Shown here: positions 3,001 to 50,856 of the stretch, in pieces
How positions within the stretch are numbered: position 1 is the first letter of the stretch
Layout: the number at the start of each line of letters is the position of its first letter
From: Firmicutes bacterium HGW-Firmicutes-1
Lineage (GTDB): Bacteria; Bacillota; Clostridia; Lachnospirales; Vallitaleaceae
DNA: 64,000 nucleotides
Direction of reading: 5' to 3'
NCBI GenBank assembly: GCA_002841625.1
Contig: PHAG01000006.1
Span: 248,001-312,000 of the forward strand
Translations under genes and position numbers: made by a program
Notes under the pieces: generated by a model
Databases searched by the model: none
Seen by the model: only the letters and a program-made list of their open reading frames with translations
What the model was told of the DNA's origin: nothing

Positions 3001-6000
3001 CGGAGTAATGCCACAGTCAGATACTCTTGAAGAATTCTGGAATCAAATCAGGGATGAAAAAGATTTAATTACCGAAATTCCAAAAGATAGATGGGATTGG
3101 GAAAAAATATATGGGGATGCAAAGAGCGAAACCAATAAGACTAAAATAAAATGGGGAGGCTTCATGAAAGAAGTGGACAAGTTTGATCCGCTGTTCTTTG
3201 GCATTTCACCAAGAGAAGCAGAGCTTATGGATCCACAACAAAGAATATTCTTAGAAATAGTATGGAACACCTTAGAGGATGCAGGGTATAAATCAAAAGA
3301 TATTGCTGGAACAAATATGGGCGTGTTTGTTGGCGTTGCAACGTCTGAGTATAGTAATCTTTTGAAAGATTATCACGTTGACATTCAATCACAGACTTCG
3401 ACAGGAAGTGCGCACTCCGTTCTTGCGAACAGAATATCCTACCTATTGAATATTCATGGCCCAAGTGAACCAATAGATACAGCATGTTCGAGTTCATTGA
3501 CAGCAGTTCATAGGGCAGTTGAAGCGATCCGACAAGGTTATTGTGATATGGCAATAGCTGGAGGGGTGAACGTATTAGTCACTCCTGAAAATTACATCGC
3601 CTTTAATAAGGCGGGGATGCTAAGTGAAGATGGAAGGTGTAAAACCTTTGATAAGAGCGCAAACGGTTATGTTAGAGGGGAAGGTTCAGGAGCTTTGCTT
3701 TTGAAACCATTAAGTCACGCGATAAAAGATGGCAATCATATTTATGGTCTAATTAAAGGCAGTGAGATTAATCATGGTGGACACGTTAGTTCGTTAACAA
3801 CACCCAATCCAAATGCGCAAGCAGAGGTCATTTATAAAGCATGGAAGAAAGCGGGAGTAGATCCATCAACGATAGAATATATAGAAGCTCATGGAACGGG
3901 CACAAGCCTAGGAGATCCAATAGAAATCAACGGATTAAAAAAAGCTTTTGAGCAATTGTATTTAGATTGGGGTAAGAAACCAAGTGAGATCAAACACTGT
4001 GGTATTGGGTCTGTAAAGACGAATATCGGACATCTTGAAGCGGCAGCGGGTGTTGCTAGTATCATTAAAGTATTGCTTTCAATCAAGAATAATCAAATAC
4101 CTGGAAGCATTCATTTAAACGAGTTGAATCCATATATTCAGTTAGATAAAAGCCCACTATATATAGTAAAGCGAACACAGGATTGGAAAAGCAAATCAGA
4201 CGTTCCTAGGAGAGCAGGTATAAGTTCCTTTGGATTTGGTGGAACGAATGCTCATGTGGTTATAGAAGAATTCATAACACCAGAAGAAAGCATTTTAATG
4301 AAGGAAGAGCCACAGATCATTGTTTTATCTGCAAAAAACAAAGATAGACTAAAGGAATATGTAGAAATTTTAGTGAAGTATATCGAAAAGAGCAACACTA
4401 CATCTGCCAATCATATGCTTGAACAAAAGCTTATACATCATATTGAGGAGGATGTGCTTAAAATAACTGCCAAGGTTATTGATGTTCCAGATTATGAAAT
4501 AGATAACAACAAAACGTTAGATGAGTATGGTTATGATCCGGTTAATACAACAGAGTTGTATGCTAGGATATGGCAAATGTATAACATCGAAGAGGTGAAA
4601 GCATTAGCAGATCACTATGTATCTATCGAGTATATAGCACAGTATTTATATGAGAATCACAGAGATCTAATAATGAAATTTTACCCTCAAGTAGAAGTTG
4701 ATTCCAATATACAAATAATAGCAAATATGAATTTATCTGATATTGCCTATACATTACAGGTAGGACGAGATACAATGCCTGAGCGATTAGCAGTAGTTGT
4801 TTCAGATATAGAGTTACTCCTTGAGAAATTAAATCAATATTTAGAAGGTAAGACAGATATAGAAGATTTATATGAAAGAAGTAATACATATAAGAAGAAA
4901 AAGAACTTTGATTTTATAGACGGTGAAGAGGGTAATGAATTTATTAAAAACTTAATTAAGAATAAAAGATTAACTAATATAGCGAAATATTGGGTTGATG
5001 GAGGTGAAATCGATTGGGATCTTTTACATCATAAGAACAATCAAAGACGTATATCACTTCCTACTTATCCTTTTGCAAGAGAAAGTTATTGGGCACCAGA
5101 GAGAAATATAAGCGTAGGTTACTACAATCAACAGGAAGCAATAAGTAAGTTACACCCTATGATAGATAGAAACACTTCTACATTAGAAGAGCAGAAGTTT
5201 ACAACAGTATTTTCTGGGAAGGAGTTCTATTTTTCAGATCATGTGATAGCAGGAAATAAGATTTTGCCAAGAACAGCATATATTGAGATGGCAAGAGCTG
5301 CAAGTGAATTATCAGGAATAGATAATATTCAAAAAATAATAAATATTGTGTGGGCTAGTCCTATAATGTTAAATGACACTTGCGAAGTGCATATCTGTCT
5401 TTATCAAGAAGAGGATTCAATTGATTATGAGGTTCGTACGATTAATGACGATGGTTTGAGTATATTAAACGGACAAGGTACATTGATGTTAGAGGGCAAG
5501 GATTTTTCAAATGGTTATGAACAAATAATTGATATTCCATCAATTAGGCAAAGATGTACAAAGTTTATTAGTAGCGAGCAATTCTATAAGAGATATTCTG
5601 AAAATGGATATGAATATGGGAAAAGCTTAAGATCAATAAAAGAATTGTATATTGGTAATGGAGAAGTACTGGCACAGCTCACATTCCCAGAAGAAGTTAC
5701 TACGCAGCTTCAAGATATCACACTTCATCCATCCCTAATGGAGGGTGCCTTTCAATCCGTGGCAGCTATAGTAGCTGAAGGAGATACAACAACTTATTTA
5801 CCGTTTGAACTAGGCGAAATTGAGATTTTAGGTAAACTTGAGAAAAATTGTTATGCGTATACTACCTTAGTATCAGTTGATAGTAGCATGACAAAGTATA
5901 ATCTTGAGTTAGTAAATGAAGAAGGAATTATTTTGATTAAAATAAAAGGTTTCTCGCTGCGGGCCATTTCTACAGAGGCTATTGTTGAAGAGAGCGAGAC

Positions 6001-7132
6001 CGTTTACTACACGAGTAATTGGAAACAAAGGAAGTTGATTTATAATGAAAACAAGGTAGCTGTAGGGAACCTTCTTGTATTTGATCAGGAGGTAAGTCTG
6101 CTTAATGGGCTAGTAGATAGTACACAAATCAGTGCAAATACAGTAACATCAGTTAAACTTGGTGCAAAATTTGTTGAAGTGAATGAAGGCGAATATGAAA
6201 TTAATCCTGCCAATGATAAAGACTATATGAAATTATTGCAAAGGTTGGAGGAAAAAAACCGCATACCGTCTACGATACTTCATTTTTGGAGTAAGGAAGT
6301 AAGGGGATTTAAAGAAGACACTCAATATAAAGAAGCTAAGATTGGAGTGAATGTAAATACTGACACTGGACACTTGAAAAAAGAGCTTGTTACAAGTGTT
6401 TATTCGATATACCATTTAAGCCAATCATTATTAAAGCAAAAAATTGACACGCCTATTCAACTTGTATATGGGTATGCAATTGATGAAAATTTTGGGAAGC
6501 CACATTTTGAAGCAGTTAAGGGCTTACTAAAAACAGCCTGTATTGAAACTTCTAAATTGAAGTATAAGTCAATCGGTTACGACACCGAGAATAGCTTAGA
6601 ACTGCATAGCTTACTTATCTCTGAGTTAAAATCTGAGGACAATGAGGTGCTTTACCAAGGGACTCAAAGGCACATAAAATCTATTGTTGAAATAGATGAA
6701 ATTGAAATTACAGCGAAGCCAAAGGAATCTCTTTTAAAGAATAAAGGCGTTTACTTGATTACAGGAGGTGCAGGTGGTTTAGGTCAGATATTTGCTAAGC
6801 ATTTGGCGAAAGAATATCAAGCAAGATTGGTACTTGTGGGTAGGTCAAAACTTACGAAGGATAAGCAATCTCAAATTAATTTATTAAAGAAATATGGTGC
6901 TGCTGTAATCTATGTTCAAGCAGATATTTCTAAAAAAGAAGAGGTAGATCAGCTTATTACGAAAGCTAAAGATGAGTATAAAGAAATAAATGGTATCATC
7001 CACAGTGCAGGGGTTATTAGAGATTCTTATTTAATCAATAAAATAGAAGAAGAAATGACAGCAGTACTAAATCCAAAAGTATATGGGACTATGTGGTTGG
7101 ATGAGGCGACGAAAAAAGAGCCGTTAGATTGA
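2..7132 (+). CDS. Trans-AT polyketide synthase, fragment 1 (5' end off window; 3' end broken in KR2)
   Basis: The frame is open from the first base, so the gene starts left of the window; the ATG-like TTG at 125 is internal. Order: KS0 linker tail (2-150, ends LPGYQFEGERLW), DH1 (185-1010), KR1 (1030-2500), ACP1 (2570-2800), KS1 (2975-4280), an ACP-like insert (4405-4690), rest of the post-KS linker (4730-5120), DH2 (5149-6000), truncated KR2 (6010-7130). DH1 has HxxxGxxxxP (His codon 278) and DGxxQ (Asp codon 779). KR1 has GGAGGLG near 1802 and an intact SS/Y/N active site near 2183-2240; its IND motif keeps the Asp of B-type KRs. ACP1 carries GFDS (Ser codon 2684). KS1 has TACSSS (Cys codon 3485), HGTGT and NIGHLE. 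No AT follows the KS, hence trans-AT. The frame stops inside KR2 just after EPLD, where other KRs continue into FFVMFSS. Function is extension and beta-reduction/dehydration of an ACP-bound chain. DH2 has an unusual Glu for Asp. Confidence 0.93.
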   Translation, partial: GHFLKLAQLWALGVEINWEVLHKDQIPGRVSLPGYQFEGERLWIPEYEAIEALQSRPHNMDKLHPMIDKNISTLDEQRFSVVFTGKEFFVSEHVIEGNKVFPGVGYIELARAAGELSGIDPIRKIKDIVWARPITVNDSCEVQISLYPEDDSIDYEVNSINDDGMVLLHGQGRLILGSKDLLTGSNHKIDLQSIKERCTKYISGEQFYKWYSETGFKYGNSFKAVTDVYVGNKETLAYLVFPEDGTTQLEDMELHPTLMDGALQTIAGLVDQKDTTTYLPFALGEIEILGKLEKKCYAYATLITDTKYMRKYNIQLVNEEGVILINIKDFSLRVMSAEAVGSVSETLYYTSNWIQSKLIDNDKVILGGNILIFDHDKSRLNGLEESIQISTKTITYVKPGTKYNEVGDGEYEINPSNDKDYIKLLHNLKEKKCIPSIILHFWSRDARIHKVGTINNDAEFIEDMDTDPKHLGKELKTSVYSVYHLTRSLLEQKIDTPIQIVYVYEIDENFGKPQYEAVNSFLKTICLETSKIDYKSIGYDTKESIEIQKLLLSELKSEDKEVFYQDGQRFTKSLNEIDKIESVAKPNEYLLKNKGVYLITGGAGGLGSIFAEYLAKAYQSRIILTGRSLLDQQQQEKIDSLKKYGAEVLYIRADISNKEDVEKLIIESKKAFCQIDGIIHSAGIINDAYIINKKEKEMEKVIAPKVYGTVWLDEVTKNEELDFFVMFSSISATLGNSGQTDYSYANSFMDYYAVKREKMKQHHKRYGKSIAINWPLWRDGGMRVDQETQKHIEKTMGLKALETQTGIDAFIFSLQQTTSQLIVVQGDKKKLRNTMNKTKDNGVKETKALEIIEVDDDELFNKLQRDLTHIVSDILKLNVKDIDLDEDMSGFGFDSISFTGFSNKLNDKFNIHVMPSLFYEHPSLLSLLRYLLMEYREILSCYYVDVVKTVNVNPIMNNEDGLPAIEQMKTRTRFKLQDNRLKISDALMIENEPIAIVGMSGVMPQSDTLEEFWNQIRDEKDLITEIPKDRWDWEKIYGDAKSETNKTKIKWGGFMKEVDKFDPLFFGISPREAELMDPQQRIFLEIVWNTLEDAGYKSKDIAGTNMGVFVGVATSEYSNLLKDYHVDIQSQTSTGSAHSVLANRISYLLNIHGPSEPIDTACSSSLTAVHRAVEAIRQGYCDMAIAGGVNVLVTPENYIAFNKAGMLSEDGRCKTFDKSANGYVRGEGSGALLLKPLSHAIKDGNHIYGLIKGSEINHGGHVSSLTTPNPNAQAEVIYKAWKKAGVDPSTIEYIEAHGTGTSLGDPIEINGLKKAFEQLYLDWGKKPSEIKHCGIGSVKTNIGHLEAAAGVASIIKVLLSIKNNQIPGSIHLNELNPYIQLDKSPLYIVKRTQDWKSKSDVPRRAGISSFGFGGTNAHVVIEEFITPEESILMKEEPQIIVLSAKNKDRLKEYVEILVKYIEKSNTTSANHMLEQKLIHHIEEDVLKITAKVIDVPDYEIDNNKTLDEYGYDPVNTTELYARIWQMYNIEEVKALADHYVSIEYIAQYLYENHRDLIMKFYPQVEVDSNIQIIANMNLSDIAYTLQVGRDTMPERLAVVVSDIELLLEKLNQYLEGKTDIEDLYERSNTYKKKKNFDFIDGEEGNEFIKNLIKNKRLTNIAKYWVDGGEIDWDLLHHKNNQRRISLPTYPFARESYWAPERNISVGYYNQQEAISKLHPMIDRNTSTLEEQKFTTVFSGKEFYFSDHVIAGNKILPRTAYIEMARAASELSGIDNIQKIINIVWASPIMLNDTCEVHICLYQEEDSIDYEVRTINDDGLSILNGQGTLMLEGKDFSNGYEQIIDIPSIRQRCTKFISSEQFYKRYSENGYEYGKSLRSIKELYIGNGEVLAQLTFPEEVTTQLQDITLHPSLMEGAFQSVAAIVAEGDTTTYLPFELGEIEILGKLEKNCYAYTTLVSVDSSMTKYNLELVNEEGIILIKIKGFSLRAISTEAIVEESETVYYTSNWKQRKLIYNENKVAVGNLLVFDQEVSLLNGLVDSTQISANTVTSVKLGAKFVEVNEGEYEINPANDKDYMKLLQRLEEKNRIPSTILHFWSKEVRGFKEDTQYKEAKIGVNVNTDTGHLKKELVTSVYSIYHLSQSLLKQKIDTPIQLVYGYAIDENFGKPHFEAVKGLLKTACIETSKLKYKSIGYDTENSLELHSLLISELKSEDNEVLYQGTQRHIKSIVEIDEIEITAKPKESLLKNKGVYLITGGAGGLGQIFAKHLAKEYQARLVLVGRSKLTKDKQSQINLLKKYGAAVIYVQADISKKEEVDQLITKAKDEYKEINGIIHSAGVIRDSYLINKIEEEMTAVLNPKVYGTMWLDEATKKEPLD
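4405..4690 (+). other. ACP-like domain inserted in the post-KS1 linker, phosphopantetheine Ser replaced by Pro
   Basis: Between the end of KS1 (VVIEEF, 4270) and the conserved linker restart (LSDIAYTLQVGRD, 4733) lies about 95 residues with the pattern of an acyl carrier protein: helix 1 EEDVLKITAKVIDV, then the loop LDEYGYDPVNTTEL at the place of GFDSxSFTEL, then helices. The carrier Ser would be the Pro codon at 4538, so no phosphopantetheine can be attached. Other KSs in this window, except KS8, lack this insert. A structural or docking role is an inference. Confidence 0.7.
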
Positions 7133-7140
7133 AGAGCGTA
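7120..7140 (+). other. Deletion/frameshift scar in KR2
   Basis: At 7130 the sequence jumps from the codons for EPLD to the codons for KSVSINW. Compared with intact KR4 (15858-16000), about 133 nt are missing, covering the catalytic Ser, Tyr and Asn region. The loss shifts the frame and ends fragment 1. The 380 nt before the scar are nearly identical to those before the scar at 11500 (about ten differences by eye). Confidence 0.85.
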
Positions 7141-10100
7141 TCAATTAATTGGCCTCTATGGCGTGAAGGTGGTATGAAGGTTGACCAGCAAACAGAAATA
7201 TTGCTTCGAAAAAATTTTGGCTTTAAGCTTTTTGAAACTGAAATAGGAATTGACACCTTTGAATTAAGCTTATTACAGTCAGAATCACAGCTTATTGTAT
7301 TACAGGGCGATAAAATAAAAATAAACAATGCGATCAAAGGAAATCAAGAGAAAGATGTAAAAGAAATAACGGTAAAAGCAACAAATACTATTGAAATACT
7401 AGAAGCGGATGAAAAGGATATTTTAAATAAATTACAGGGTGACTTAAAGCAAATCATTGCAGAAATTCTAAAGCTTCAAATAAAGGATATAGATATTGAT
7501 GAAGATATGAGCGGTTTTGGATTTGATTCAATTTCTTTTACAGAGCTCAGTAACAAACTCAATGATCAATTTAATATACAGGTTATACCAGCCTTATTTT
7601 ATGAGCATCCTTCACTGTTGTCACTTTTAAAATTCCTTTATAAAGAATATAGTGAAATATTGAGTTGCCATTATATTGATACCGTTAGAACTGTTAATAT
7701 TAAGCCAATCATCAATGATGGGGATGGGATTCCGGTATTAGAACAAATAAAAGCAAGGACTAGGTTTAAGCCATTAAACAATAAAGCACAAACAACATCG
7801 TACGAACCAATTGCAATCGTTGGAATGAGTGGGGTAATGCCGCAGTCAGAAACCCTAGAAGAATTCTGGAAGCATTTAAAGGATGGGGAAGATTTAATTA
7901 CTGAAATTCCAAAAGACAGATGGGATTGGGAAAAAATATATGGTGATGCCAATAGTGAAGAGAACAAGACTAAAATAAAATGGGGAGGCTTCATGAAAGA
8001 AGTGGATAAGTTTGATCCACTGTTCTTTGGTATTTCTCCAAGAGAAGCAGAGCTCATGGATCCCCAACAAAGAATTTTCTTAGAAACAGCATGGAAGACT
8101 ATAGAAGATGCCGGATACAAGTCAAAGGATATTGCTGGAACAAATATGGGAGTGTTTGTGGGGGTTGCATCGTCTGATTATAGTAAGCTCTTGAAAGAAT
8201 ATAATGTTGCCATTCAGGCGCAAACTGCATCAGGAAGTGATCACGCCATTCTCGCGAATAGAATATCATACCTATTGAATATCCATGGCCCAAGTGAGCC
8301 AATAGATACGGCATGTTCTAGTTCGTTGACTGCAGTCCATAGGGCAGTTGAAGCGATACAACATGGTTATTGTGATATGGCAATAGCTGGTGCAGTGAAT
8401 CTATTAGTGAGTCCTGAAAATTATATTGCCACTAATAAGGCGGGGATGTTAAGTGAAGAGGGAAGGTGTAAAACCTTTGATAAGAGTGCAAATGGTTATG
8501 CTAGAGGTGAAGGTTCAGGTGCGTTGCTTTTAAAACCGCTAAGCCATGCCATTAAAGAGGGTAATCATATTTATGGTCTTATTAAAGGCATTGAAATAAA
8601 TCATGGCGGACATGTTAGCTCGTTAACCACGCCAAATCCAAATGCTCAAGCAGAGGTCATATTTAAAGCCTGGAAGAAAGCGGGAATAGATCCATCAACA
8701 ATAGACTATATAGAGGCTCATGGAACGGGAACAAGTTTAGGAGATCCAATAGAAATAAATGGATTAAAAAAAGCTTTCGAGCAATTGTATATAGAATGGG
8801 GTAAGAAGCCAAGTGAGATCAAACACTGCGGCATTGGATCTGTAAAGACGAATATTGGTCATCTTGAAACAGCAGCAGGTATTGCGGGTATGATAAAAGT
8901 TTTACTTTCAATTAAAAATAATCAGATACCTGCAAGCATTCATTTAAACGAGGTGAATCCATATATCCAGTTAGACAATAGCCCACTATATATTGTAAAG
9001 CAAACACAGGATTGGAAAAGCAAGTCGGATCTTCCTAGGAGAGCTGGTATAAGTTCCTTTGGGTTTGGAGGAACAAATGCCCATGTTGTGATTGAAGAAT
9101 ACATGGAACCACAAAAAAGCCTTGTAAATAATCAAGAGCCACAAATTATTGTATTATCAGCGAAAAACAAAGATAGGTTAAAGGAATATGTTAAGGCTTT
9201 AGTAAAACATATTGAAACTAATAATACTAATTTATCTGATGTTGCATATACGCTACAGATAGGGCGTGATCCAATGCCTGAACGATTAGCAGTAGTGGCT
9301 TCTGATATTAAGGTACTCCTTGGAAAATTAAATTGCTATCTAGAAGGTAAGGCGGATATAGAAGATTTACATGAAAAAATGCCTACACAAAACAAGCAAA
9401 AATCCTTCGATTTTATAGAGGGTGAAGAGGGTATAGGAGAAGTGGATTGGGAGCTTTTACATGATAAGAGCAATCAAAGACGAATATCACTTCCTACATA
9501 TCCCTTTGCAAGAGAGAGTTATTGGGTGCCAGAAAGAAATACTAGCTTAGGCGGTTACAATAAGCAGGAGTCAATAAGTGTGTTACACCCAATGATAGAT
9601 AGAAATACATCTACATTAGAAGAACAAAAGTTTGTTACGGTATTTTCAGGCAAGGAGTTCTTTCTTTCAGATCATGTGATAGCAGGAAATAAGATTTTAC
9701 CAGAATTAGCTTATATTGAAATGGCAAGAGCTGCAAGTGAACTATCTGGAATAGAGAATCTTAGAAAAATAAAAGATATTGTGTGGGCAAAACCTATCAT
9801 AATAAATGATTCTTGTGAAGTGCAAGTTAATCTTTATCCAGAAGAGGGTTCAATTGACTATGAGATTAGTACGATTAATAATAATTGCTCGAGGCTAGTA
9901 CACGGTCAAGGTAGATTGATAATAGGTAGCGAAAATTTAACAAATGGTTATGAACATAATATAGACCTTCAGTCGATTAAAGAAAGATGTACAAAGTATA
10001 TTAGTAAAGAGCAATTCTATAAAAGATATTCGGAAACTGGATGTGAATACGGAAAGAGTTTAAAATCAATAAAAGAATTGTATGTAGGAGAAGGAGAAGT

Positions 10101-11550
10101 GCTAGCACAGCTCATATTTCCTGAAGGTGTTAATACACAACTTCAAGATATCAGACTTCATCCATCACTAATGGAAGGTGTCCTCCAGACGGTAACGACA
10201 GCAACTTATCTACCTTATGCATTAGGTGAAATTGAGATTATAAACGAGTTTAAAGAAATATGTTATGCATATTCTACTTTAGTATCAGAAAATGTAAATA
10301 TAAAAAAATACAACATTGATGTAGTAGACGAAGAAGGGATGTTTATAGTAAGGATTAAAGATTTCACCCTAGAAGCGGTGAAAACAATTGATCAAACTGA
10401 TGATGAAGTGCAAAGTGAGACACTTTATTTCACTAGCAAGTGGAAACCTTGTAGCTTAATTGAACATGAAAAAGAGACAATCGCAGGTAATATTCTTGTA
10501 TTTGATCAGGAGAAGAGTTGCCTAAATGTGCTAGAAGATAGTATTCAAATTGGCATAAATACAGTAACTTACGTAAGATGTGGAACAAATTATACTGAAG
10601 TAGGTGAAAGCGAATATGAAATTGATCCTTCAAATTATAAAGACTATGTAAAGCTATTGCACTCTTTGAAGGAAAAAAACCGTATACCAGCTGTAATATT
10701 ACATCTTTGGAGTAAAAAAGAGCTGAGTACTGACCAGGAACACTTGAAAGAAGAACTTATGTCAAGCGTTTATTCAGTATACCATTTAAGCCGTTCGTTA
10801 TTGAAAGAAAAAATAGAAAATCCTATTCAAATTATATACGGATATTTTATTAACGAGAATTTTGGGAAACCACATTTTGAAGCTGTTAGTGGTTTGCTAA
10901 AAACAGCATGTCTTGAAAGTTCTAAAATTGATTATAAATCAATTGGCTATGACAACAAAAACAGCTTAGAACTACAAAGCATAATTATATCGGAGTTAAA
11001 ATCCAAAGATAAAGATATTGTATATCAAGAGGGAGAAAGGATCGTAAAATCTCTTGAAGAAATAGCAGAAATTGAAAATAGTGTTAAAGAAAATAAGACA
11101 CTATTAAAAGATAAAGGTGTTTATCTGATTACAGGAGGTGCAGGTGGGTTAGGTCAGATATTTGCTAAGCATTTGGCGAAAGAATATCAAGCAAGATTGG
11201 TACTTGTGGGTAGGTCAAAACTTACGAAGGATAAGCAATCTCAAATTGATTTATTAAAGAAATATGGTGCTGCTGTAATATATATTCAAGCAGATATTTC
11301 TAAAAAAGAAGAAGTAGATCAGCTTATTACGAAAGCTAAAGAGGAGTATAAAGAAATAAATGGTATCATCCACAGTGCAGGGGTTATTAGAGATTCTTAT
11401 CTAATCAATAAAATAGAAGAAGAAATGACAGCAGTACTAAATCCAAAAGTATATGGGACTATGTGGTTGGATGAGGCGACGAAAAAAGAGCCGTTAGATT
11501 CGGGAAGAGCGTATCAATTAATTGGCCTTTGTGGAGAGATGGAGGTATGA
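7129..11550 (+). CDS. Trans-AT polyketide synthase, fragment 2 (KR2 tail-ACP2-KS2-DH3-KR3 start)
   Basis: There is no ribosome binding site at the 5' end and the first residues (KSVSINWPLWREGG) are KR2 C-terminal sequence, so this is a continuation of fragment 1 in another frame, not a separate gene. Order: KR2 tail (7129-7330), ACP2 (7430-7650, GFDS, Ser codon 7528), KS2 (7800-9100; Cys codon 8314 in TACSSS; HGTGT; NIGHLE), post-KS linker (9120-9540) with an in-frame loss of about 22 residues at 9432, DH3 (9580-10390), KR3 structural half and Rossmann half (10400-11500). DH3 has His (codon 9673) but Glu in place of Asp (codon 10174) and is about nine residues short after that motif. KR3 loses its active site: after EPLD (11500) the frame runs into an unrelated tail of about 17 residues and stops at 11550. 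KR3 sequence upstream of the break is nearly identical to KR2 upstream of its break. Confidence 0.9.
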   Translation: MKSVSINWPLWREGGMKVDQQTEILLRKNFGFKLFETEIGIDTFELSLLQSESQLIVLQGDKIKINNAIKGNQEKDVKEITVKATNTIEILEADEKDILNKLQGDLKQIIAEILKLQIKDIDIDEDMSGFGFDSISFTELSNKLNDQFNIQVIPALFYEHPSLLSLLKFLYKEYSEILSCHYIDTVRTVNIKPIINDGDGIPVLEQIKARTRFKPLNNKAQTTSYEPIAIVGMSGVMPQSETLEEFWKHLKDGEDLITEIPKDRWDWEKIYGDANSEENKTKIKWGGFMKEVDKFDPLFFGISPREAELMDPQQRIFLETAWKTIEDAGYKSKDIAGTNMGVFVGVASSDYSKLLKEYNVAIQAQTASGSDHAILANRISYLLNIHGPSEPIDTACSSSLTAVHRAVEAIQHGYCDMAIAGAVNLLVSPENYIATNKAGMLSEEGRCKTFDKSANGYARGEGSGALLLKPLSHAIKEGNHIYGLIKGIEINHGGHVSSLTTPNPNAQAEVIFKAWKKAGIDPSTIDYIEAHGTGTSLGDPIEINGLKKAFEQLYIEWGKKPSEIKHCGIGSVKTNIGHLETAAGIAGMIKVLLSIKNNQIPASIHLNEVNPYIQLDNSPLYIVKQTQDWKSKSDLPRRAGISSFGFGGTNAHVVIEEYMEPQKSLVNNQEPQIIVLSAKNKDRLKEYVKALVKHIETNNTNLSDVAYTLQIGRDPMPERLAVVASDIKVLLGKLNCYLEGKADIEDLHEKMPTQNKQKSFDFIEGEEGIGEVDWELLHDKSNQRRISLPTYPFARESYWVPERNTSLGGYNKQESISVLHPMIDRNTSTLEEQKFVTVFSGKEFFLSDHVIAGNKILPELAYIEMARAASELSGIENLRKIKDIVWAKPIIINDSCEVQVNLYPEEGSIDYEISTINNNCSRLVHGQGRLIIGSENLTNGYEHNIDLQSIKERCTKYISKEQFYKRYSETGCEYGKSLKSIKELYVGEGEVLAQLIFPEGVNTQLQDIRLHPSLMEGVLQTVTTATYLPYALGEIEIINEFKEICYAYSTLVSENVNIKKYNIDVVDEEGMFIVRIKDFTLEAVKTIDQTDDEVQSETLYFTSKWKPCSLIEHEKETIAGNILVFDQEKSCLNVLEDSIQIGINTVTYVRCGTNYTEVGESEYEIDPSNYKDYVKLLHSLKEKNRIPAVILHLWSKKELSTDQEHLKEELMSSVYSVYHLSRSLLKEKIENPIQIIYGYFINENFGKPHFEAVSGLLKTACLESSKIDYKSIGYDNKNSLELQSIIISELKSKDKDIVYQEGERIVKSLEEIAEIENSVKENKTLLKDKGVYLITGGAGGLGQIFAKHLAKEYQARLVLVGRSKLTKDKQSQIDLLKKYGAAVIYIQADISKKEEVDQLITKAKEEYKEINGIIHSAGVIRDSYLINKIEEEMTAVLNPKVYGTMWLDEATKKEPLDSGRAYQLIGLCGEMEV
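9425..9445 (+). other. In-frame deletion scar in the post-KS2 linker
   Basis: After the codons for EGEEG the sequence goes straight to IGEVDW, where KS1's linker has 24 residues between EEG and EIDW, including the conserved (A)KxWVxGxEIDW strand. About 66 nt are missing. The frame is kept. Confidence 0.75.
11491..11515 (+). other. Deletion/frameshift scar in KR3
   Basis: Same position in the KR as the scar at 7130: codons for EPLD, then a junction TTCGGG, then sequence encoding KSVSINWPLW in another frame. About 130 nt are missing relative to KR4. The sequence after the junction (PLWRDGG type) differs from that after the first scar (PLWREGG type), so the two are not simple copies. Confidence 0.85.
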
Positions 11551-13796
11551 GAGTCGATCAACAAACAGAAAGACTTCTTGAAAATACCTTAGGCTTTAGG
11601 CTTTTTGAAACGCAAACAGGTCTTGAAGCTTTCGAATTTAGCTTAAAACAGGCTGCATCTCAATTAATTGTTGTACAAGGGGATAAGAGTAAACTAAGGA
11701 ATACAATTCATAAAACTAAAGAATATGTATTAAAAGAAATAGAGGTTTTAGAAATCAGTGAGGTAGATGATAACGAGCTATTCAATAAGCTTGAAAGAGA
11801 TTTAACACACATTGTATCAGACATATTAAAGTTGAATGTTAAGGATATTGAACTAGATGAAGACATGAGTGAATTTGGGTTTGATTCCATTTCATTTACT
11901 GAGTTTAGTAACAGACTCAATTCCAAATTTGATTTGAAAGTTATGCCAGCATTATTTTATGAGCATCTTTCACTATTATCACTTTTTAAATATCTTATTA
12001 AAGAATACAGGGAAATATTGAGTTGTCATTATAATGATGCTGGTAGTACGGTTAATGCTAAGCTAAACGTCAAGACTGGGGATGCTTTACCGGCCGTAGA
12101 ACAAATAAAAGCAAGGACTAGGTTTAAGCTATTAAACAATAAATTACAAACAACATCTTACGAACCAATTGCAATAGTTGGAATGAGTGGGGTAATGCCG
12201 CAGTCAGAAACCCTTGAAGAATTCTGGAAGCATCTAAAGAATGGGGAAGATTTAATTACTGAAATTCCCAAAGATAGATGGTCTTGGGAAGAAATATATG
12301 GTGATGCTAAGACGGAAGCTAACAAGACTAAAATAAAGTGGGGAGGCTTCATGAAAGAAGTGGACAAGTTTGATCCACTGTTCTTTGGTATTTCTCCAAG
12401 AGAAGCAGAGCTTATGGATCCCCAACAAAGAGTATTTTTAGAAACAGTATGGAAGACCATAGAAGATGCGGGCTACAAATCAAAGGACATAGCAGGGACA
12501 AATATGGGCGTATTTGTCGGCGTTGCTGCCTCTGATTATAGTAATCTTATGAAAGAACATAAGGTTGATATCCAGCCACAAACTTCAACTGGATGTGCTC
12601 ACGCCGTTCTTGCGAATAGAATATCATACCTATTGAATATCCATGGTCCAAGTGAACCAATAGATACTGCATGCTCCAGTTCGCTGACGGCAGTTCATAG
12701 GGCAGTCGAAGCCATTCGACAAGGTTATTGTGATATGGCAATAGCTGGTGCGGTAAACCTATTAATCAGTCCTGATAATTTCATTGTCAATAATAAAGCA
12801 GGGATGTTAAGTGAAGATGGTAGATGTAAAACTTTTGATATGAGTGCAAATGGTTATGTTAGAGGCGAAGGGGCAGGTGCGTTGCTTTTGAAACCGCTAA
12901 GCCATGCCATAAAAGAGGGTAACCATATATATGGTCTCATTAAAGGGAGTGAAATTAATCATGGCGGACATGTTAGCTCGTTAACCACGCCAAATCCAAA
13001 TGCTCAAGCAGAGGTTATATTTAAAGCCTGGAAGAAAGCGGGAATAGATCCATCAACAATAGACTATATAGAGGCTCATGGAACGGGAACAAGTTTAGGA
13101 GATCCTATAGAAATTAACGGCTTAAAAAAAGCTTTTGAGCAATTGTATATGGAATGGGGTAAGACGCCAAGTGAGATCAAACACTGCGGCATTGGATCTG
13201 TAAAGACGAATATTGGTCATCTTGAAACAGCAGCAGGTATTGCTGGGGTTATAAAAGTATTGCTTTCAATTAAGAACAATCAGATACCTGCAAGCATTCA
13301 TATAAACGAGGTGAACCCATATATCCAGTTAGACAATAGCCCACTATATATTGTAAATCAAACACAGGATTGGAAAAGCAAATCGGACCTTCCTAGGAGA
13401 GCCGGTATAAGTTCTTTTGGGTTTGGTGGAACAAATGCCCATGTCGTGATTGAAGAATACATGGAACCACAAAAAAGCCTTGAAAATAATCAAGAGCCAC
13501 AAATTATTGTATTATCAGCGAAAAACAAAGATAGGTTAAAGGAATATGTTAGCGCTTTGGTAAAACATATTGAAACTAACAATACTAATTTATCTGATGT
13601 TGCATATACACTACAGATTGGGCGGGATCCAATGCCTGTACGATTAGCAGTAGTGACTTCAGATATTGAGGTACTCCTTGAAAAGTTAAATTTCTATCTA
13701 GAAGGTAAGGCGGATATAGAAGATTTACATGAAAAAATGCCTACACAAAACAAGCAAAAATCCTTCGATTTTATAGAGGGTGAAGAGGGTATTTAG
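11529..13796 (+). CDS. Trans-AT polyketide synthase, fragment 3 (KR3 tail-ACP3-KS3)
   Basis: The apparent TTG start lies in the KR3 C-terminal motif (PLWRDGGMRVDQQTE), so this too is a frame-shifted continuation rather than an independent gene; the homologous frame can be read from about 11505. Order: KR3 tail (11505-11720), ACP3 (11770-12000, FGFDS, Ser codon 11886), KS3 (12165-13460; Cys codon 12672 in TACSSS; HGTGT; NIGHLE), start of the post-KS linker (13480-13790, DVAYTLQIGRDPMP). The frame ends at 13796, just after EGEEGI, where the linker of KS1 continues for 24 more residues before EIDW. KS3 is closely similar to KS1 and KS2. Catalytically KS3 looks intact. No start signal, docking helix or stop context of a normal PKS protein is present at either end, which supports breakage of one larger gene. 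Confidence 0.9.
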   Translation: MWRDGGMRVDQQTERLLENTLGFRLFETQTGLEAFEFSLKQAASQLIVVQGDKSKLRNTIHKTKEYVLKEIEVLEISEVDDNELFNKLERDLTHIVSDILKLNVKDIELDEDMSEFGFDSISFTEFSNRLNSKFDLKVMPALFYEHLSLLSLFKYLIKEYREILSCHYNDAGSTVNAKLNVKTGDALPAVEQIKARTRFKLLNNKLQTTSYEPIAIVGMSGVMPQSETLEEFWKHLKNGEDLITEIPKDRWSWEEIYGDAKTEANKTKIKWGGFMKEVDKFDPLFFGISPREAELMDPQQRVFLETVWKTIEDAGYKSKDIAGTNMGVFVGVAASDYSNLMKEHKVDIQPQTSTGCAHAVLANRISYLLNIHGPSEPIDTACSSSLTAVHRAVEAIRQGYCDMAIAGAVNLLISPDNFIVNNKAGMLSEDGRCKTFDMSANGYVRGEGAGALLLKPLSHAIKEGNHIYGLIKGSEINHGGHVSSLTTPNPNAQAEVIFKAWKKAGIDPSTIDYIEAHGTGTSLGDPIEINGLKKAFEQLYMEWGKTPSEIKHCGIGSVKTNIGHLETAAGIAGVIKVLLSIKNNQIPASIHINEVNPYIQLDNSPLYIVNQTQDWKSKSDLPRRAGISSFGFGGTNAHVVIEEYMEPQKSLENNQEPQIIVLSAKNKDRLKEYVSALVKHIETNNTNLSDVAYTLQIGRDPMPVRLAVVTSDIEVLLEKLNFYLEGKADIEDLHEKMPTQNKQKSFDFIEGEEGI

Positions 13797-27324: not shown

Positions 27325-30300
27325 AGAGACTAGAGATATTATTGAATTAATTAAAGATAAAAAAATAACCCCAGAGGAAGGTTTTAAGCGTATTAAAGCT
27401 AATACAGATCAAATATCTGAGAATCACTATTATCTTGAGCAGTGGCAACAACTAGAAGAAAGCGCAATAGAAAACACGAGGTTATTGAAAGGTAATATAC
27501 TGCTTTTTGATGTGGATCAACAGTTTTGTAATGCGATAAGAGAGTATGTTTATAAGGAAATGGGGAGCAATGACATTAAAATTGTTTTAGTAATGCCTGG
27601 ATCCAGTTTTGGTTATTTAGAAAATGATCTTTATGAAGTAAATATTAAAAATAGTAATGATTATAAAAGCTTGTTGGATGATCTTGAAGGACGCAATGTA
27701 TTTCCAGAAACGATTCTTCATATGTGGTCAAAAGACAATGATTCAACATCCTTTAAATCACGCTTTTATAAAGGGATAGATGCTATATTTTATCTTGCTA
27801 AGGAGCTGGTTATACGTAAGATTAAATCGTACATGTCATTAATGTATTTTCATCAAGGTCATTTAAATGACATGCAACCCCAATATGCTTCAGTGGCAAG
27901 CTTTCTTAGAACCTTGAATATGGAAAATCCATACTTAAAATGCAAATCAATATGTATGGAGGAATCTGTTGATATCCACTCTTTTGTAAAGATTATAGGC
28001 AATGAAATGGCTGTAAATTTAACGGATATAGAGATCTGTTATGACGAAAGGTTAAACAGATATGTTAGAGGCTATAAGCTTTACACACCGACAAATCAAT
28101 CTGTCGTGAAACCGGTGCTAAAGAATGGGGGCACGTATATCATTACCGGTGGCGCTGGAAGCATTGGTTTGATTATTGCTGGATATATTGCCAGCAAGGT
28201 TAAATGCCATATTGCACTCACAGGAAGATCAACGCTATCTCAAGAAAAACAGGATATTCTAAAAAAGCTTGAGGAGAATGGTTCAGAAGTGGTTTATTTT
28301 GAAAGTGATATCACAAGTAAAAAAAGTGTTCAAAAACTAATAGGCGATGTGAAAATAAAATTTGATAAAATTGATGGTATTATACATTCGGCAGGAATCC
28401 TTAGAGATAGCTTTTTATTTATAAAAACAAAAAAGGATTTTGATAAGGTATTGGCACCAAAAATTTACGGTACATTTTGGCTAGATGAAGTGACCAAAGA
28501 TGAAGAATTAGATTTTTTTGTTTTATTTTCATCCGTGTCCGCGACATTAGGAAATGTTGGACAAACAGATTATGCTTATGCTAACAGCTTCATGGATTAT
28601 TATGCGAAAAAAAGAGAGTTAATGGTGAATCAAAAGCAACGATGGGGTAAAAGCATTTCTATAAATTGGCCTTACTGGTCTGATGGAGGAATGACCATAA
28701 ATGAGAAGACCTTGATCTGGTTAAAAGAGAACATGGGTATATTACCTCTAAGCTCGGAAAATGGGATAAAGGCTTTTGAAGACGCTTTAAACAATTCATT
28801 TAATCAATTAATTGTTTTTGAAGGAGATGAAAAGAAGATAAGCCAATTGTTTTCATCCAATAAGCAGCAGTATATTGATGAAAGCCAAGACGCCCTTGTA
28901 AGTAGTACGACAGTTAGCATAACTAAAGAAAACATAGATCAAGAAAATATAGATCAAGAAAACATAAATCAAGAAAACATAAATCAAGAAAACACAAATC
29001 AAGAAAACATAGATTCAGACCATATAGTTCTAGACCATATAGATCCATACGATACAGAAATAGGATTAGACTTGAAAGACAAAGCGGAGTTAGTTGAAAA
29101 AACAAAGAATTTTCTGAAACCGTTAATATCCAAAGAGACTAAGGTGCCTCTATCGAAAATAGATTCAGAGGCAGATTTTGAAAAATTCGGGCTTGATTCT
29201 GTTATGATCATGGGACTAAATAGAGAGCTGGAAAATAATTTTGGAGAGTTATCAAAAACCTTGTTTTATGAAAACCAAACAATCGGCCAGCTTGCTCATT
29301 ACCTAGTACAGAACTATGAAGATAAAGTAGTTGAAAAACTTAGTGGGTCACTAAAACAAGACCAAAGAGATCTGGACGAAGAAAACAAAAACATAGTATC
29401 ACATTCAATTACTTCCTTGAAACGTCAAATGAATACCAAAACATTTGAAAAAAACAAGGTAACCATTCTAGAACAATTACAGAATAAACAAAACAATGAA
29501 TGTATAGAAGACGATATTGCAATTATTGGGTTAAGTGGTAAATATCCGATGGCCTCAACCATAAGCGACTTTTGGGAGAATTTAAAATCAGGAAAAGATT
29601 GTATTACCCAGATTCCAACAACAAGATGGGATTATACTAAATACTTCGATGCTAACAAGAATGCAAAAGGAAAAACTTATAGTAAATGGGGTGGGTTCAT
29701 AGAAGATGTAGATAAGTTTGATCCGTTGTTTTTTAACATCTCTCCAAGAGAAGCATGTTATATTGACCCACAGGAACGTATTTTTTTAGAAACTGCCTGG
29801 CATACCCTAGAAGATGGGGGCTATACGAGAGATAAAATTTCAGAAGAAAATATTGGTGTATTTGTTGGTGCGATGTTTGGACATTATCAACTGTTTGGTG
29901 CTGAGGAATCTATGAGGGGCAATGATATTGGACTAAGCTCATCATTTGCTTCCATTGCAAATCGTGTGTCCTATATCTTAAATCTTAAAGGCCCTAGTAT
30001 TGCATTAGATACAATGTGCTCCTCTTCTTTAACAGCAATTCATATTGCAAAAGAAAGTATCCTTAGAGGCGAATGTGATGTTGCAATAGCTGGGGGCGTT
30101 AATGTTACAATTCATCCTAATAAATATATACTTCTTAGCCAAAGTAATTTTCCGTCAACAGATGGTAAGTGTAGAAGTTTTGGCGACGGAGGAGATGGTT
30201 ACGTTCCTGGAGAAGGAACGGGTGCAGTTCTATTAAAACCACTTAAGAAGGCCATAGCAGATGGTGATCATATATATGGGGTAATTAAGGGGAGTGCATT

Positions 30301-33300
30301 AAATCATGGAGGAAAGACGAGCGGGTACTCGGTGCCAAATCCCAACGCTCAAGCCTCTTTGATTTCTAAAGCACTATTGAAAGCAGGTATTGAGCCACGA
30401 ACAATTAGTTATATTGAAGCACATGGAACGGGTACTGCACTTGGAGATCCAATAGAAATAACGGGCTTAGTTCATGCGTTTCAAAAAAGCACAAAAGACA
30501 AACAGTTTTGTGCTATTGGATCTGTTAAATCTAATATTGGTCATTGCGAATCTGCTGCAGGTATAGCAGGACTAACGAAGGTACTCCTTCAAATGCAATA
30601 TAAGCAGCTAGTACCATCGATACACTCGGCAAAGTTAAATGCAAATATTAAATTTGAGAATACACCCTTTACCGTTCAACAAAGGTTAGAGGAATGGAAG
30701 CAGCCTGACATCGAGGGTAAAAAATATCTTAGACGTGCTGGTATCAGCTCCTTTGGAGCAGGAGGATCAAATGCTCATATTTTAGTTGAGGAATATATTT
30801 ACAATGAATTAGAGTATTATGAAAATAGAGAGCAATTAATCGTTCTTTCTGCAAGAAATGAAGAGCGCCTTTTAGCATATTCACAAGAATTAATCCGTTA
30901 TTTAATGGAGTCATTTGTTGAGCAACAAAAATATGGAAGAACTTCCCTAGAACAAATAGCCTATACCCTTCAGGTAGGTCGAGAAGCAATGACTGAACGT
31001 CTAGGGATAATCGCATCAAGCATAGAAGAATTGATAGAAAAACTAGAACAATATTTACTCAATAATTTGGAAACAGATAACCTATACTTGGGAACCGTAA
31101 AAGAAAAGAGTGGTATGTCTGATCAACTTGATGATGATGATGAGGGACAGGCATTTGTTTTCGCATTGATTAAAAACAAAAAACTAAACAAGCTTGCTAA
31201 ACTGTGGGTCACAGGTGTAGAAGTGGACTGGAAGACACTATATAACAATACTATTAGAAGGGTTTCGCTACCGACATATCCTTTTGCAAAAGTGCGTTAT
31301 TGGGTACCAGAACAAGAAGGGGGAGCAGTAGAGGCATTCCATAATACGCAAAACATTATATCAAAGCTTCACCCAATGATAGATCAGAATATATCAACAA
31401 TTGATGAACAGATGTTTAGTACGACATTTAGTGGGGAGGAATTCTTTCTTAAAGATCATGTGATAGAAGGTAAAATGATTTTGCCAGGTGTCGCATATAT
31501 AGAAATGGCGAGGGCAGCAGGCGAATTATCAGGTGTATTGGGAATTACTAAGATAAAAGATATACTTTGGATAAGACCCATTACGATACATGGCCCGTTG
31601 GTTGAAGTGCATATTGGTCTTTATCCAAAAGAGGATTCCCTTGAATATGAAATTAGCACAAGAAATAATGATCAAATCATTGTTCATAGTCAAGGCAGGT
31701 TATTATTTGAGGATGAAAACTTCTTGGATTTAAAGGAAGAAAAGGTGGACATTGAGACCATTATTCAAAGATGTACTGAAACCATAAGCAGTGAAGTTCT
31801 GTATCAGCGATTAGGAGAAGCCGGCTTTACTTATGGAAAACATTTTCAGCCAATAACAAAAATAGTTGTTGGAGAAGGAGAAGCATTAGCGTATCTTCAA
31901 CTATCTAATAATGGCATCGACACATTAGAGGAGTTTAAATTACACCCATCATTAATGGATGGTGCACTGCAGTCTGTTGCAGGCCTTAGTAAAGACGAAT
32001 ACTTACCATTTGCACTCGGTGAGGTGGACATTCTCAGAGAATTAAAGGAAAAATGCTATGCTCATGTATGCCTTACATTAGATACTCCCAGTATAAAAAA
32101 ATATTGTATCAATCTATTAGATGAAGAGGGAGAGGTACTGGTCAGGTTAAAGGATTTCTCCTTACGAGCATTTAAACCAAAAACAATCCAAGCTCAAAAA
32201 GCAACACACATAAGCCCTAATACACAAATCGAAACAATAAAGGTAGAAAATCAAGAACTATCAAATAGTCTGCAAAAAGATATTGTACATTTTATAGCCA
32301 ATATAGTAATGATGAAAGAGATTGATATAGATATAAACAAAGATATGAGTCGATTTGGATTTGATTCTATATCGTTTACTGAGCTAAGCAATAAATTTAA
32401 TGAGAAGTATAAAATGCATATTATGCCCTCTCTATTTTACGAGCATGAAACCATTTTATCTTTAATTAAATACCTTTTAAAGGAATACAAGGAACTTTTA
32501 TATCAATATTACAGTGACAGTCTTAACGAAGACCACTATAAATCCAAGATTCCATTAGTTACTGAAGATTCTGCAGAAGATTCGGTGGAACAAATTAGGT
32601 CAAGGTATAGAGCCTTGCCATATATTGCTCAAACCTCCAATTTAATAGGAAGACTTAATGAGCCCATTGCAATTATAGGTTTAAGCGGTGTTATGCCAGG
32701 CTCAGATACCCTCGAAGAATATTGGAACAATATTGAAGCTGGGAAAGACCTCATCACTGAAATACCTGAAGATCGGTGGGATTGGAGAGCTTATTATGGT
32801 GATCCTATGAAAGAACCCAACAAAACAAATGTTAAATGGGGAGGCTTCATGAAGGAAGTGGATAAGTTTGACTCCCGGTTTTTTGAAATATCACCTAGAG
32901 AAGCAGAGTTGATGGATCCTCAACAGAGAATATTTCTTCAAACGGTATGGAAAGCAATAGAAGATGCAGGATATAGTCCAAAAGAAATATCAGGAACGAA
33001 AACAGGTGTATTTGTTGGTGTAGGAACTTCTGATTATGGTGATCTTCTTAAAGAAAATAACATAGAAATAAAGGCTCAAATTACAACGGGTCTATCCAAT
33101 TGTATTATTGCAAACAGAATCTCATATTTATTAAATTTTCATGGTCCAAGTGAGCCTATAGATACGGCGTGTTCTAGTTCATTAGTGGCTGTTCATCGGG
33201 CAGTGGAAGCAATACAATTAGGAAACTGTGAAATGGCTATTGCTGGAGGTGTGAGTGTTATAGCAAGTCCTTCTCCTTATATAGCCCTAAGTAAAGCAGC

Positions 33301-36300
33301 TATGATTTGTGAGGATGGTAGATGTAAAACCTTTGATAAGCATGCAAATGGGTATGTTAGAGGAGAAGGTTCGGGTGCCATATTATTAAAACCATTAAGT
33401 AAAGCAATTGACGATCATGATCACATTTATGCTGTTATTAAGGGAAGTGATGTGAATCATGGAGGCCATGTTAATTCTATGACAACACCAAATCCAAATG
33501 CACAAGCAGAGGTTATTGTAAAGGCGTGGAAGAAGTCGGGAATAGATCCTTCTACAATAGGATACATAGAAGCCCATGGTTCAGGAACAAGTTTGGGGGA
33601 TCCAATTGAGATTAATGGATTAAAAAAAGCATTTTCACAGCTATATTTGGAAAGGGGTAAGACAGCACAAGGGAAGCCTTATTGTGGTATTGGTTCTGTA
33701 AAAACGAATGTAGGACATCTTGAAACTGCTGCTGGAATAGCGGGTCTATTAAAAGTTGTTCTTGCTATGAAAAATAAAAAGATACCTCCTACCATTCATT
33801 TTAATGAATTAAACCCTTATATAGAGTTAGGGGGTAGTCCTTTCTATATCGCAGAGGATTTAAAGGTGTGGGAAAAAATCGGGAATGAGCCTAGAAGAGC
33901 AGGCGTCAGTTCCTTTGGATTTGGTGGAACCAATGCCCATGTAGTACTTGAAGAATACGAGATGCCACAATATAAATTACAGGAAGAAAATCAAAAACAG
34001 ATCATTATTCTTTCAGCAAAAAACAAAAACAAACTTCAAGAATATGCGAGTGAAATGATAAGATATTTGGATACAATTTGTAAGGAAGTTCATAACCTGC
34101 CCTATGATGGACAATTAATTCAGCTGATAGAGAGTGACTTAATAAAACTAGCAGCAGAAATAATGAATGTATCACAAGAAGAAATCTCAATTCATGAAAG
34201 TTTAGATGTATATGGATTTGATCCTGTTAGATTAATTGAATTTAGAAAAGATATTGATGACAAATTTGGGATGGAAAACACAATCCTATTGACTAGGCAG
34301 TATTTATCTATCAAAGAGATTGCTCTAATAATTTATAATCAGTTTCAAGAAGGTTTTTTGGATTATTATCGTGATAAAATTGTGGACAATAGGAATGCGA
34401 TAAAGGAGAATATTAGTTTAAGAGACATTGCCTTTACGCTTCAGGTAGGTAGAGAAGAAATGTCTGAACGCCTTGCAGTTGTAGTTTCTGATAAAACGGA
34501 TTTAAAAGAAAAATTATGCATGTTCGTAGGAGAACGGGGAGATGCTGAAAAGTTATACTTAGATACAGCTAGAGATAGCAAAAATAAAATGACTTTTATT
34601 ATGGACGGTGAAGAAGGACGGGAATTTTTATATAGGTTAATCAAAGAGAAAAAAATTGAGAAAATAGCACAGCTTTGGGTGAGTGGTACAGCAATAGATT
34701 GGAAGCTTTTATATGAAAACAGATTACCAAGACGTTTGTCACTTCCGACGTATCCATTTGCAAGAGATCGATATTGGTTACCTGAACAAAAAGAAAAGCC
34801 TAAAGTAAAAAATATAGTTGAAAGTAAGGCTGTGAAGGATGATGTTTTATACTATACGAGTAGTTGGGAAAACTGTGAATTAGATGAGCATTTGGATAAC
34901 AAATTACCTATTAGCTTACTTGTGTTCGATTCAGGAAAGGGTATATTTAACCTAACGAATGCGGAGGGCGAGTATCCTTTGACTGCTTTGAAAGGGCATG
35001 AAAAAGAAGCATTCAATGAAGTGATTTTAGTACATAGGGGAGAGACTTTTAAAGAATTAAGTAAATGTGAATATGAAGTGAATCCTTTAAAGAAAGAAGA
35101 CTATGTAAAATTATTCGAAATATTAAAGGAAAAAAATCAAGTACCGACGCACCTTCTATATTTATGGAATTATTTAGAGGAGATAACAGTTGAAGATATT
35201 CACCTGAATGAAGCTATAGGGCACCAACTAGAAACGAGTGCTTATTCATTGCTTCATTTATGTCATGGCTTAATAGAGAAAAAATGGGAAAAGAACATTA
35301 AAATTATCTACGCTTATAATTCAACCATGAGTGAAAACATATCTCAATATGAAGCTGTAAGTGGTTTGCTAAAAACAGTATGTCTAGAAAATGCAAGGAT
35401 ATCCTATAAAACAATAATGCTTGATATGGACCCTAAGAATATAGAAGATTTAAGAACCTTGCTTATAGAAGAGCTTATGGATGAAAGTGCTGAGGTGATG
35501 CATCAAGATGGACGAAGGTCAGTTAAAATCTTGATTGAAAAAAATGTTACATTAAATAAAGGTGAATATGAGGATAAAAAATCCCTATTAAGGGACAGAG
35601 GCGTATATATCATTACTGGAGGTGCGGGTGGTTTAGGGTTGATTTTTGCTGAATACTTAGCCCGGAATTATAGAGCAAGGCTTGTGCTGACAGGTAGATC
35701 AGAACTTGAAATAAGTAAACAAGTTAAGCTAGAGTCATTTAAGAAGTACGGAGCAGAGGTCATCTATGTTAGGACAGACGTATCTAAACAAGAGGAAGTT
35801 GAAAACCTTATAGACGAGGCCAAAAGAAATTTTACCCAAATCAACGGTATTATTCATAGTGCAGGTGTCATAAGAGATGCATACCTCATCAAAAAAACAG
35901 ACAAAGAGATGAAAGAAGTACTTTTGCCAAAAGTATATGGGACAGTATTGCTAGATGAGATTACAAAAAATGATAACCTAGACTTTTTCGTACTATTTTC
36001 ATCCATAGCAGCTGTTTTTGGGAATCCTGGACAGGGAGATTATGCTTATGCCAATGGTTTTTTGGACAGTTTTTCACATAAAAGAGCGGATATGGTAAAG
36101 AAGAAGGAACGTTATGGCAAGTCTATTTCTGTTAACTGGCCTTTGTGGCAACATGGTAATATGCAAGTAGATCAACAGATTGAGCAGATGATGGAAAACA
36201 GTCTGGGAATTAGATTGCTTCAGACTCATGTTGGCATTGATGCTTTTGAATTTAGCCTTACCCAGGAAAGTAATCAGTTGATGGTGCTTCAAGGGAACAA

Positions 36301-47175: not shown

Positions 47176-47385
47176 TGCTGTGACAAAAGAGCAATGAAGT
47201 AAGAGGTTGCTGTATTTATACAGGTTTTCTTACGGAGCGATGTCAAGTTCAAGAAACTGGCGACAAGATCACTGTACAATAAATCAATGAAGTTGATTAA
47301 GAGTGTGTAACAACTATGATACACACGGCAACATGTACAGTCACCACTTGTCGTACTAACGTACGAAAAGGAGGCGACTTTTTTT
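47176..47385 (+). promoter_or_regulatory. Structured 5' leader of rpsJ
   Basis: About 200 nt of untranslated leader with nested perfect pairings: GTAAGA/TCTTAC (47199-47204 with 47228-47233) around CTGTA/TACAG; CGACAAG (47261-47267) with CTTGTCG (47347-47353); inside it ACTGTACA (47271-47278) with TGTACAGT (47334-47341), enclosing AATCA/TGATT and GTGTGTA/TACACAC hairpins; then TCGTAC/GTACGA just before the AAGGAGG. This is a multi-branch RNA close to the start codon. Autoregulation by a protein of the operon (L4 does this in E. coli) is the obvious hypothesis; no known leader family was matched. Confidence 0.7.
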
Positions 47386-48614: not shown

Positions 48615-48638
48615 TAAACACAGGAAGGAGGAACAATA

Positions 48639-49558: not shown

Positions 49559-49627
49559 TTAGTAATTAACACTAAGTATGAATAGACACACACGGTAGCG
49601 TGTAAGTTTTTGAAAGGAGTGAAAATC

Positions 49628-50464: not shown

Positions 50465-50551
50465 TTTGCGATACAAAACTAATAAATGATTTAACTTCTC
50501 GGTTACACAAGTACCAATAATTGAGAAGGACTTGAAAAAGGAGGTTTAATA

Positions 50552-50833: not shown

Positions 50834-50856
50834 TTAATTGAAAGGAGGCAATCTAG

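Follow-up and report, generated by a model that had tools for sequence, protein, structure and literature searches.

A Ser-less acyl carrier protein-like domain nested in the flanking subdomain of selected trans-acyltransferase ketosynthases

The 64,000 nucleotides analysed here (contig PHAG01000006.1 of Firmicutes bacterium HGW-Firmicutes-1, positions 248,001 to 312,000; "the window" in the following, labelled G000:C6:248001-312000 in our genome set, with G000 as the source genome) comprise the larger part of a trans-acyltransferase (trans-AT) polyketide synthase (PKS) line, which begins upstream of the window. Two of the 11 ketosynthases (KSs) in the window, KS1 and KS8, carry an additional domain resembling an acyl carrier protein (ACP) within their linker, the flanking subdomain (FSD), while the other nine are insert-free. 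Domains of this kind, derived from ACPs and devoid of the phosphopantetheine Ser, are nested in the FSD of selected trans-AT KSs, and within a line they reappear at intervals of about three or four KSs.

Both segments are in frame with the PKS genes on the forward strand. KS1 with its FSD and insert extends from 2975 to the LPTYPF motif at 5107; the insert covers 4391-4732 (core 4415-4690), and in its GYDPV motif (4529-4543) a Pro codon at 4538-4540 occupies the place of the phosphopantetheine Ser. For KS8 (32660-34792, likewise up to LPTYPF), the insert was found at 34073-34417 (core 34103-34375), with a GFDPV motif at 34214-34228 and the Pro codon at 34223-34225. The extra ACP-shaped domain with GYDPV or GFDPV, which the first-pass annotation had proposed for the region behind these two KS bodies, was thus confirmed, and its limits could be refined. 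KS7 (29510-31318, forward strand) with its ordinary insert-free FSD served as comparator; further insert-free KS-FSDs ending in LPTYPF lie at 7804-9540, 16660-18507, 21337-23184, 24511-26310, 40710-42548 and 44454-46271.

The insertion comprises about 110 residues with an ACP-like core of about 90 residues, and is located after the first linker helix (..LSAKN..RL..Y..) and before the helix starting with ..DIAYTLQVGR. Accordingly, the Pfam profile of the RhiE-like KS linker (PF22336) is split, being read to about profile position 23 and resuming at 24-25. Since both halves of the linker are intact around the insert, the flanking subdomain typical of trans-AT KSs is present, and compared to the known FSD or KS-AT linker (PF22336, PF22621) with its LINKS helices the new element is a loop insertion. 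Among the sequence matches listed (E <=1), solved KS-FSD structures align only with the two halves of the KS1 and KS8 linkers, or else match single carrier domains weakly.

The insert is predicted to adopt a four-helix carrier fold. The PP-binding profile PF00550 matched the KS8 insert with 28.7 bits (E 1.6e-6, cut-off 20.8) and the KS1 insert with 20.1 bits (E 7.6e-4), slightly below the cut-off. The AlphaFold2 model of the KS1 insert, calculated from a 5-row alignment, showed a mean confidence score (pLDDT) of 82.8 and four helices in ACP-like order. For KS8 with its FSD a mean pLDDT of 70.0 was obtained, with blocks of 61-89 in the insert, and the helix at residues 522-536 (helix II) starts at the Pro. 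A structural comparison of the KS1 model with Foldseek gave PKS or nonribosomal peptide synthetase (NRPS) carriers as the best among the matches listed, with TM-scores by target of 0.76-0.85 among the better ones, at weak E-values (best 4e-3). The best match by VIA-align was BlmI (Z 11.8, root-mean-square deviation 1.5, 83 residues), a type of score to be read with care, as helical bundles easily reach middling Z. All structure matches listed for the KS1 insert are carriers or carrier domains of complexes. With the type I PKS ACP domain (PF00550) the insert has the fold, the helix order, the G-[FYL]-D turn and the hydrophobic core in common; in contrast to such an ACP, which sits between catalytic domains, it is nested in a KS flanking subdomain.

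For the distribution, a profile of linker, insert and linker was searched. The source genome contains six such inserts across two contigs. Full-length members were found in 4 of 392 genomes of the order sample (G000, G001, G017 and G155), and a fifth genome with profile matches, G013, yielded ordinary ACPs only. The class sample contributed members in 5 of 391 genomes (G000 again, G523, G449, G583 and G707), the phylum sample in 1 of 398, namely the source genome, and in the Paenibacillaceae 23 of 295 genomes gave matches at E <=1e-20. In a plasmid collection, a full-query match occurred in three records, from Bacillus velezensis (macrolactin genes), Paenibacillus sonchi and Klebsiella grimontii. 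A scan of the genome collection with the insert alone gave five loci, two of which, in HGW-Firmicutes-7, are linker inserts; the remaining three are Paenibacillus carrier domains outside linkers with a GFDPI motif. Six non-Firmicutes records (Rhizobium, Agrobacterium, Eleftheria, Nostoc, Pseudoalteromonas pTML1 and Ensifer) showed no KS insert over the stretches that were read, and the PKS genes other than macrolactin in the B. velezensis record contained no full-length insert.

For comparison, 61 inserts were compiled: a first set of 31 (26 from eight Clostridia genomes, two from macrolactin, two from P. sonchi and one from K. grimontii) and a second set of 30 from 13 Paenibacillaceae clusters, which covers part of the sites matched in that family. 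The K. grimontii plasmid, pNY3A (L170, L179), is a mobilizable plasmid with a trans-AT PKS/NRPS cluster of the Firmicute kind and several broken frames. Its insert-bearing stretch is repeated (72023 and 49010), and two further, mutually identical copies with GIDQV stand outside the 61. The insertion is an all-or-none feature in both sets. In the first set, insert-free KSs had 46-63 residues between the KS end and the second linker half and insert-bearing ones 131-178, with no value in between; the corresponding figures of the second set were 46-78 and 138-179 residues.

The inserts differ from working carriers in the Ser, which was present in 1 of the 61, while 285 of 287 ordinary ACPs from these clusters have it. 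Among the first-set inserts the position was never Ser, showing Pro in 16 cases, Ala in four, Leu in three, Val in two, and Arg, Thr, Asp, Ile, Glu and Tyr in one each, while the ordinary ACPs of the same stretches had Ser in 145 of 146 cases (140/140 among the full-length ones). The second set comprised Pro (9), Gln (7), Ala (6), His (2) and one each of Glu, Ser, Ile, Thr, Lys and Gly, compared to Ser in 140 of 141 ordinary ACPs. Consequently, the inserts of the window, both with Pro, lack the defining feature of a working ACP, but Pro itself, the shared substitution on which the first-pass annotation had relied, occurs in 25 of 61 inserts and is not general. Judged from these alignments, the conserved property is the loss of the Ser with the predicted fold retained. 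The only linker insert with Ser, the kind of homologue named beforehand as evidence against a non-carrier, is L196 (G1302:C2:106715) with GTDSM, whose Ser could be ancestral or regained, or which may be a functioning carrier. A carrier of another chemistry, loaded on a different residue, would have the fold as its argument and nothing further, and is scarcely credible, since the residues found in most cases (Pro, Ala, Gln and Leu) are unable to accept phosphopantetheine. Ser-less carriers also occur at ordinary places, as in Paenibacillus sinensis (L118, L119 and L121, about 6001-6260), where GFDPI carrier domains lie outside linkers and two of them directly precede another carrier domain.

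The inserts share one family history, in the course of which the ACP core was kept and the conserved helix-III face of working ACPs was lost. In a tree of inserts and ACPs of the same clusters, the insert label required 7 changes compared to 25.4 after shuffling (0 of 500 shuffles as low); this tree includes 27 of the 31 first-set inserts, four with fewer than 60 filled columns being left out, and with its few columns leaves many forks open. The inserts would thus form one ACP-derived family, and a single origin is compatible with the tree. A local capture of neighbouring ACPs is not supported, since the inserts group together. The KS tree shows the label dispersed over its branches (21 changes compared to 22.3 shuffled, at least 8 of them forced by well-supported branches), and from this difference it follows that KS bodies and inserts have different histories. 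This fits recombination and co-evolution around KS and FSD, as reported in passages of PMC11260071. In core columns such as those of Leu, Ile, Tyr/Phe and the G-x-D turn, the inserts match ACPs in their degree of conservation, whereas the PTLFFEY stretch of helix III (columns 61-67) is conserved in ACPs only. Divergence is otherwise fast: four orthologous pairs between sister genomes showed 84-92% identity for the KSs and 39-49% for the inserts, inserts within one line share only 21%, and overall they are mutually 17-21% identical without a conserved surface.

This fast divergence could also be explained by a relic, that is, an ACP which landed once in the FSD loop and has been carried along without function. 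Gain or loss between sister genomes (G000:C1:323811 without, its counterpart KS G001:C48:162353 with insert) and the few members that are scarcely recognisable would agree with this. The fold core, however, is kept over 61 copies at about 20% identity, and the regular spacing described below was found again in the second set, which makes a relic distinctly improbable. Instead of decay, which the first-pass annotation had already argued against, the data describe an old, widespread and non-random family of non-carriers with the fold kept. The insert of G001:C48:162353 forms the only adjacent insert pair of the whole set.

Along the assembly lines the inserts are regularly spaced. Successive inserts of the first set are 3-4 KSs apart in 9 of 12 spacings, compared to 3.4 expected (P 0.001). 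Before the second set was read, expectations had been fixed. Among these the spacing of 3-4 held, while a complete absence of Ser, absence from the last KS and a fusion of AT and enoylreductase (ER) in every cluster failed; an insert on the last KS of the stretch was found in G1289, G1358 and G1432. The 16 distances of the second set were 2 once, 3 seven times, 4 seven times and 5 once, so that 14 of 16 lie at 3-4 compared to 4.6 expected, and none of 100,000 shuffles reached this number. This count treats two G1316 clusters as separate lines and includes G1432, which is related to G1358; omission of the G1432 line resulted in 12 of 14 compared to 4.0 expected (P 3e-5). In a stratified recount, shuffling was limited to KSs with FSD and equal state of the upstream dehydratase (DH), with the two G1316 clusters merged into a single line and without G1432 and the two G001 lines. 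It gave 12 of 15 for the second set (P 1e-4), 9 of 12 for the first (P 0.002) and 21 of 27 for both, a value not reached in 50,000 shuffles. The line patterns were transcribed from domain tables in the first counts and computed in the recount; owing to their fragmented open reading frames (ORFs), the G155 lines do not enter the spacing counts, and the G449 line and several Paenibacillaceae lines are incomplete at the ends of the stretch read.

The pattern had at first been described as one insert per multi-KS polypeptide (P 0.008 and 0.005), a count that took the broken ORFs of the window as one polypeptide and G000 and G001 as if independent; it was replaced by the spacing along the line. A periodicity of this kind might be the trace of a duplication of blocks of three or four modules. 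The KSs of insert pairs at lag 3-4 are indeed slightly more alike (56.5%, n=21, compared to 50.7%, n=245), but the KS identities within lines at lags 1-5 (53.2, 51.5, 51.4, 50.9 and 51.0%) show no peak at either of these lags, and of 56 inserts only 12 are most closely related to another insert of their own line. Block duplication is therefore very unlikely as the origin of the spacing. Altogether, a recurrence at this interval suggests that the task is structural and not chemical.

A chemical task was considered in the form of a module-specific gate. The insert would then be linked to the reactions carried out by the upstream module and could, for example, block or replace the DH step. In the macrolactin line, the inserts of KS6 and KS10 both follow modules whose DH has lost the catalytic His, and the product presumably keeps the hydroxyl at the steps before these two KSs. 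Across the lines compared, no such connection was observed. An upstream DH was present for 21 of 25 KSs with and 35 of 50 without insert (p 0.26), and insert presence showed no link to the upstream ketoreductase (KR; p 0.76), the own DH (p 0.80) or the own KR (p 0.11). A link to inactive DHs, suggested by a regex count, was not borne out after alignment of the catalytic columns, with dead upstream DHs in 3 of 26 cases with and 2 of 44 without insert (p 0.35). A positioning of the DH, one of the functions suggested in the first-pass annotation, is accordingly not supported. In favour of a gate, passages of PMC11260071 describe a co-evolution of KSs with their upstream domains and a recombination site at the FSD end. 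As the spacing also survives stratification by upstream DH, we regard a gate as rather improbable.

The main rival to a structural role is a docking station, at which the insert would hold a stand-alone AT or AT-ER near the line, with one station per three or four modules. AT-ER fusions (TIGR02814) were found beside the insert-bearing PKS genes in all eight insert-bearing Clostridia genomes and in the macrolactin, P. sonchi and K. grimontii clusters, which amounts to 11 of the 11 genomes or records with inserts that were tested. In addition, a domain with an ACP fold is what an AT naturally pairs with, and a review describes it as an open question whether the stand-alone AT needs to dock at a site on trans-AT modules. 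The co-occurrence that favours docking of a trans-acting enzyme, as proposed in the first-pass annotation, is thus real, but AT-ER fusions also occur without insert in G013 and on the thiomarinol plasmid pTML1, and an ER was found in only 6 of 13 Paenibacillaceae stretches, which are of limited length. Inserts with 17-21% identity and no shared conserved surface would be odd for a single common partner. Furthermore, the single ER-requiring step of macrolactin is one that, as we take it, feeds the insert-free KS3. Together with G013 and pTML1, this rules out recruitment of a trans-acting ER as the sole reason for the insert, and docking in general is considered possible but unlikely.

Since the tests for chemistry were negative and the AT-ER co-occurrence holds one way only, we favour a structural role and assume, with a probability of about 40%, that a carrier fold was recruited as an FSD element which organises assembly lines. 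Passages of PMC11260071 report that FSDs mediate lateral contacts between KS dimers, a function assigned to the LINKS helices there and in parts of PMC11907408, and call the function of the FSD of trans-AT KSs unclear beyond these contacts. The insert would be a structural part of the FSD, neither catalytic nor cargo-bearing, and each KS dimer would have a pair of them protruding on the side at which FSDs reportedly meet. In this arrangement the inserts could act as spaced pins that keep adjacent lines, or consecutive dimers within a line, in register. Their rapid position-specific divergence might represent a recognition code, an argument reportedly made for the LINKS helices, which belong to this subdomain as well. 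A kept fold, an unkept sequence and a periodic position suit such a spaced register element. The wider proposal, that periodic Ser-less carrier domains in the FSD set register and spacing of the supramolecular PKS complex in Firmicute-type trans-AT lines, is held somewhat more tentatively.

Several observations weigh against this structural role. The line of the window itself has a spacing of 7, the worst in the set; one family member retains GTDSM; many trans-AT lines, such as those in the stretches covered of the six non-Firmicutes records and, as regards full-length inserts, the other PKS genes of the B. velezensis record, manage without insert; and the contact of the inserts between KS dimers is itself a proposal. 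In addition, the FSD beyond the insert (the LINKS region) has a median length of 103 residues both with and without insert (P 0.77), which also means that the insert does not replace LINKS. Among the KSs between the two inserts of the window, some share 88-91% identity with the first KS and two share 92% with one another, amounting to up to three recent module copies (KS bodies 88-92%) in the region of broken ORFs. An ancestral spacing of 4 with three copies inserted later is possible, as a remark made post hoc.

In the macrolactin PKS of B. velezensis (MlnD/MlnG), KS6 and KS10 carry two inserts of the same kind with no difference of weight. The assignment is based on gene order, sizes and 11 KSs, which match the published summary (PMC4397504). 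The table given there names 15 ACPs for the 11 KSs, so that one insert may have been counted as an ACP. No description of the insert was found in the open-access full-text literature searched, which does not extend to most subscription journals. A domain that marks every third or fourth KS gives a handle on FSD function, and it can be cleanly deleted in a genetically tractable producer of the antibiotic macrolactin, with a numerical prediction at hand. Since the recommended fusion point for PKS swaps is the FSD end, such swaps would move or break the spacing. In annotations, Ser-less inserts are likely to be counted as extra ACPs.

A different kind of insertion was observed in some KSs, which show 436-533 residues between the KS and the FSD end, where cis-AT PKSs have their AT. 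These are KS1 of MlnB in macrolactin (L171), L103 (G017:C20:23873), L107 (G523:C1:977385), G1358:C1:4165725, G1173:C4:107592 and G1265:C1:4910955, and include the first KS of the macrolactin, G1358 and G1265 lines. In G017 a GHS-like GVGNG stretch is visible; an AT was rejected as explanation, as no Pfam AT match was obtained.

In the window, the PKS frame is broken three times (7129-7132, 11529-11550 and 13780-13796) within near-identical modules, leaving two KRs without the stretch bearing the catalytic Tyr and one linker cut. These breaks represent either collapsed assembly repeats or real deletions. The end of the PKS line is followed immediately by the S10-spc-alpha ribosomal protein genes (47386-64000), which are preceded by an S10-Clostridia leader at 47186-47266.

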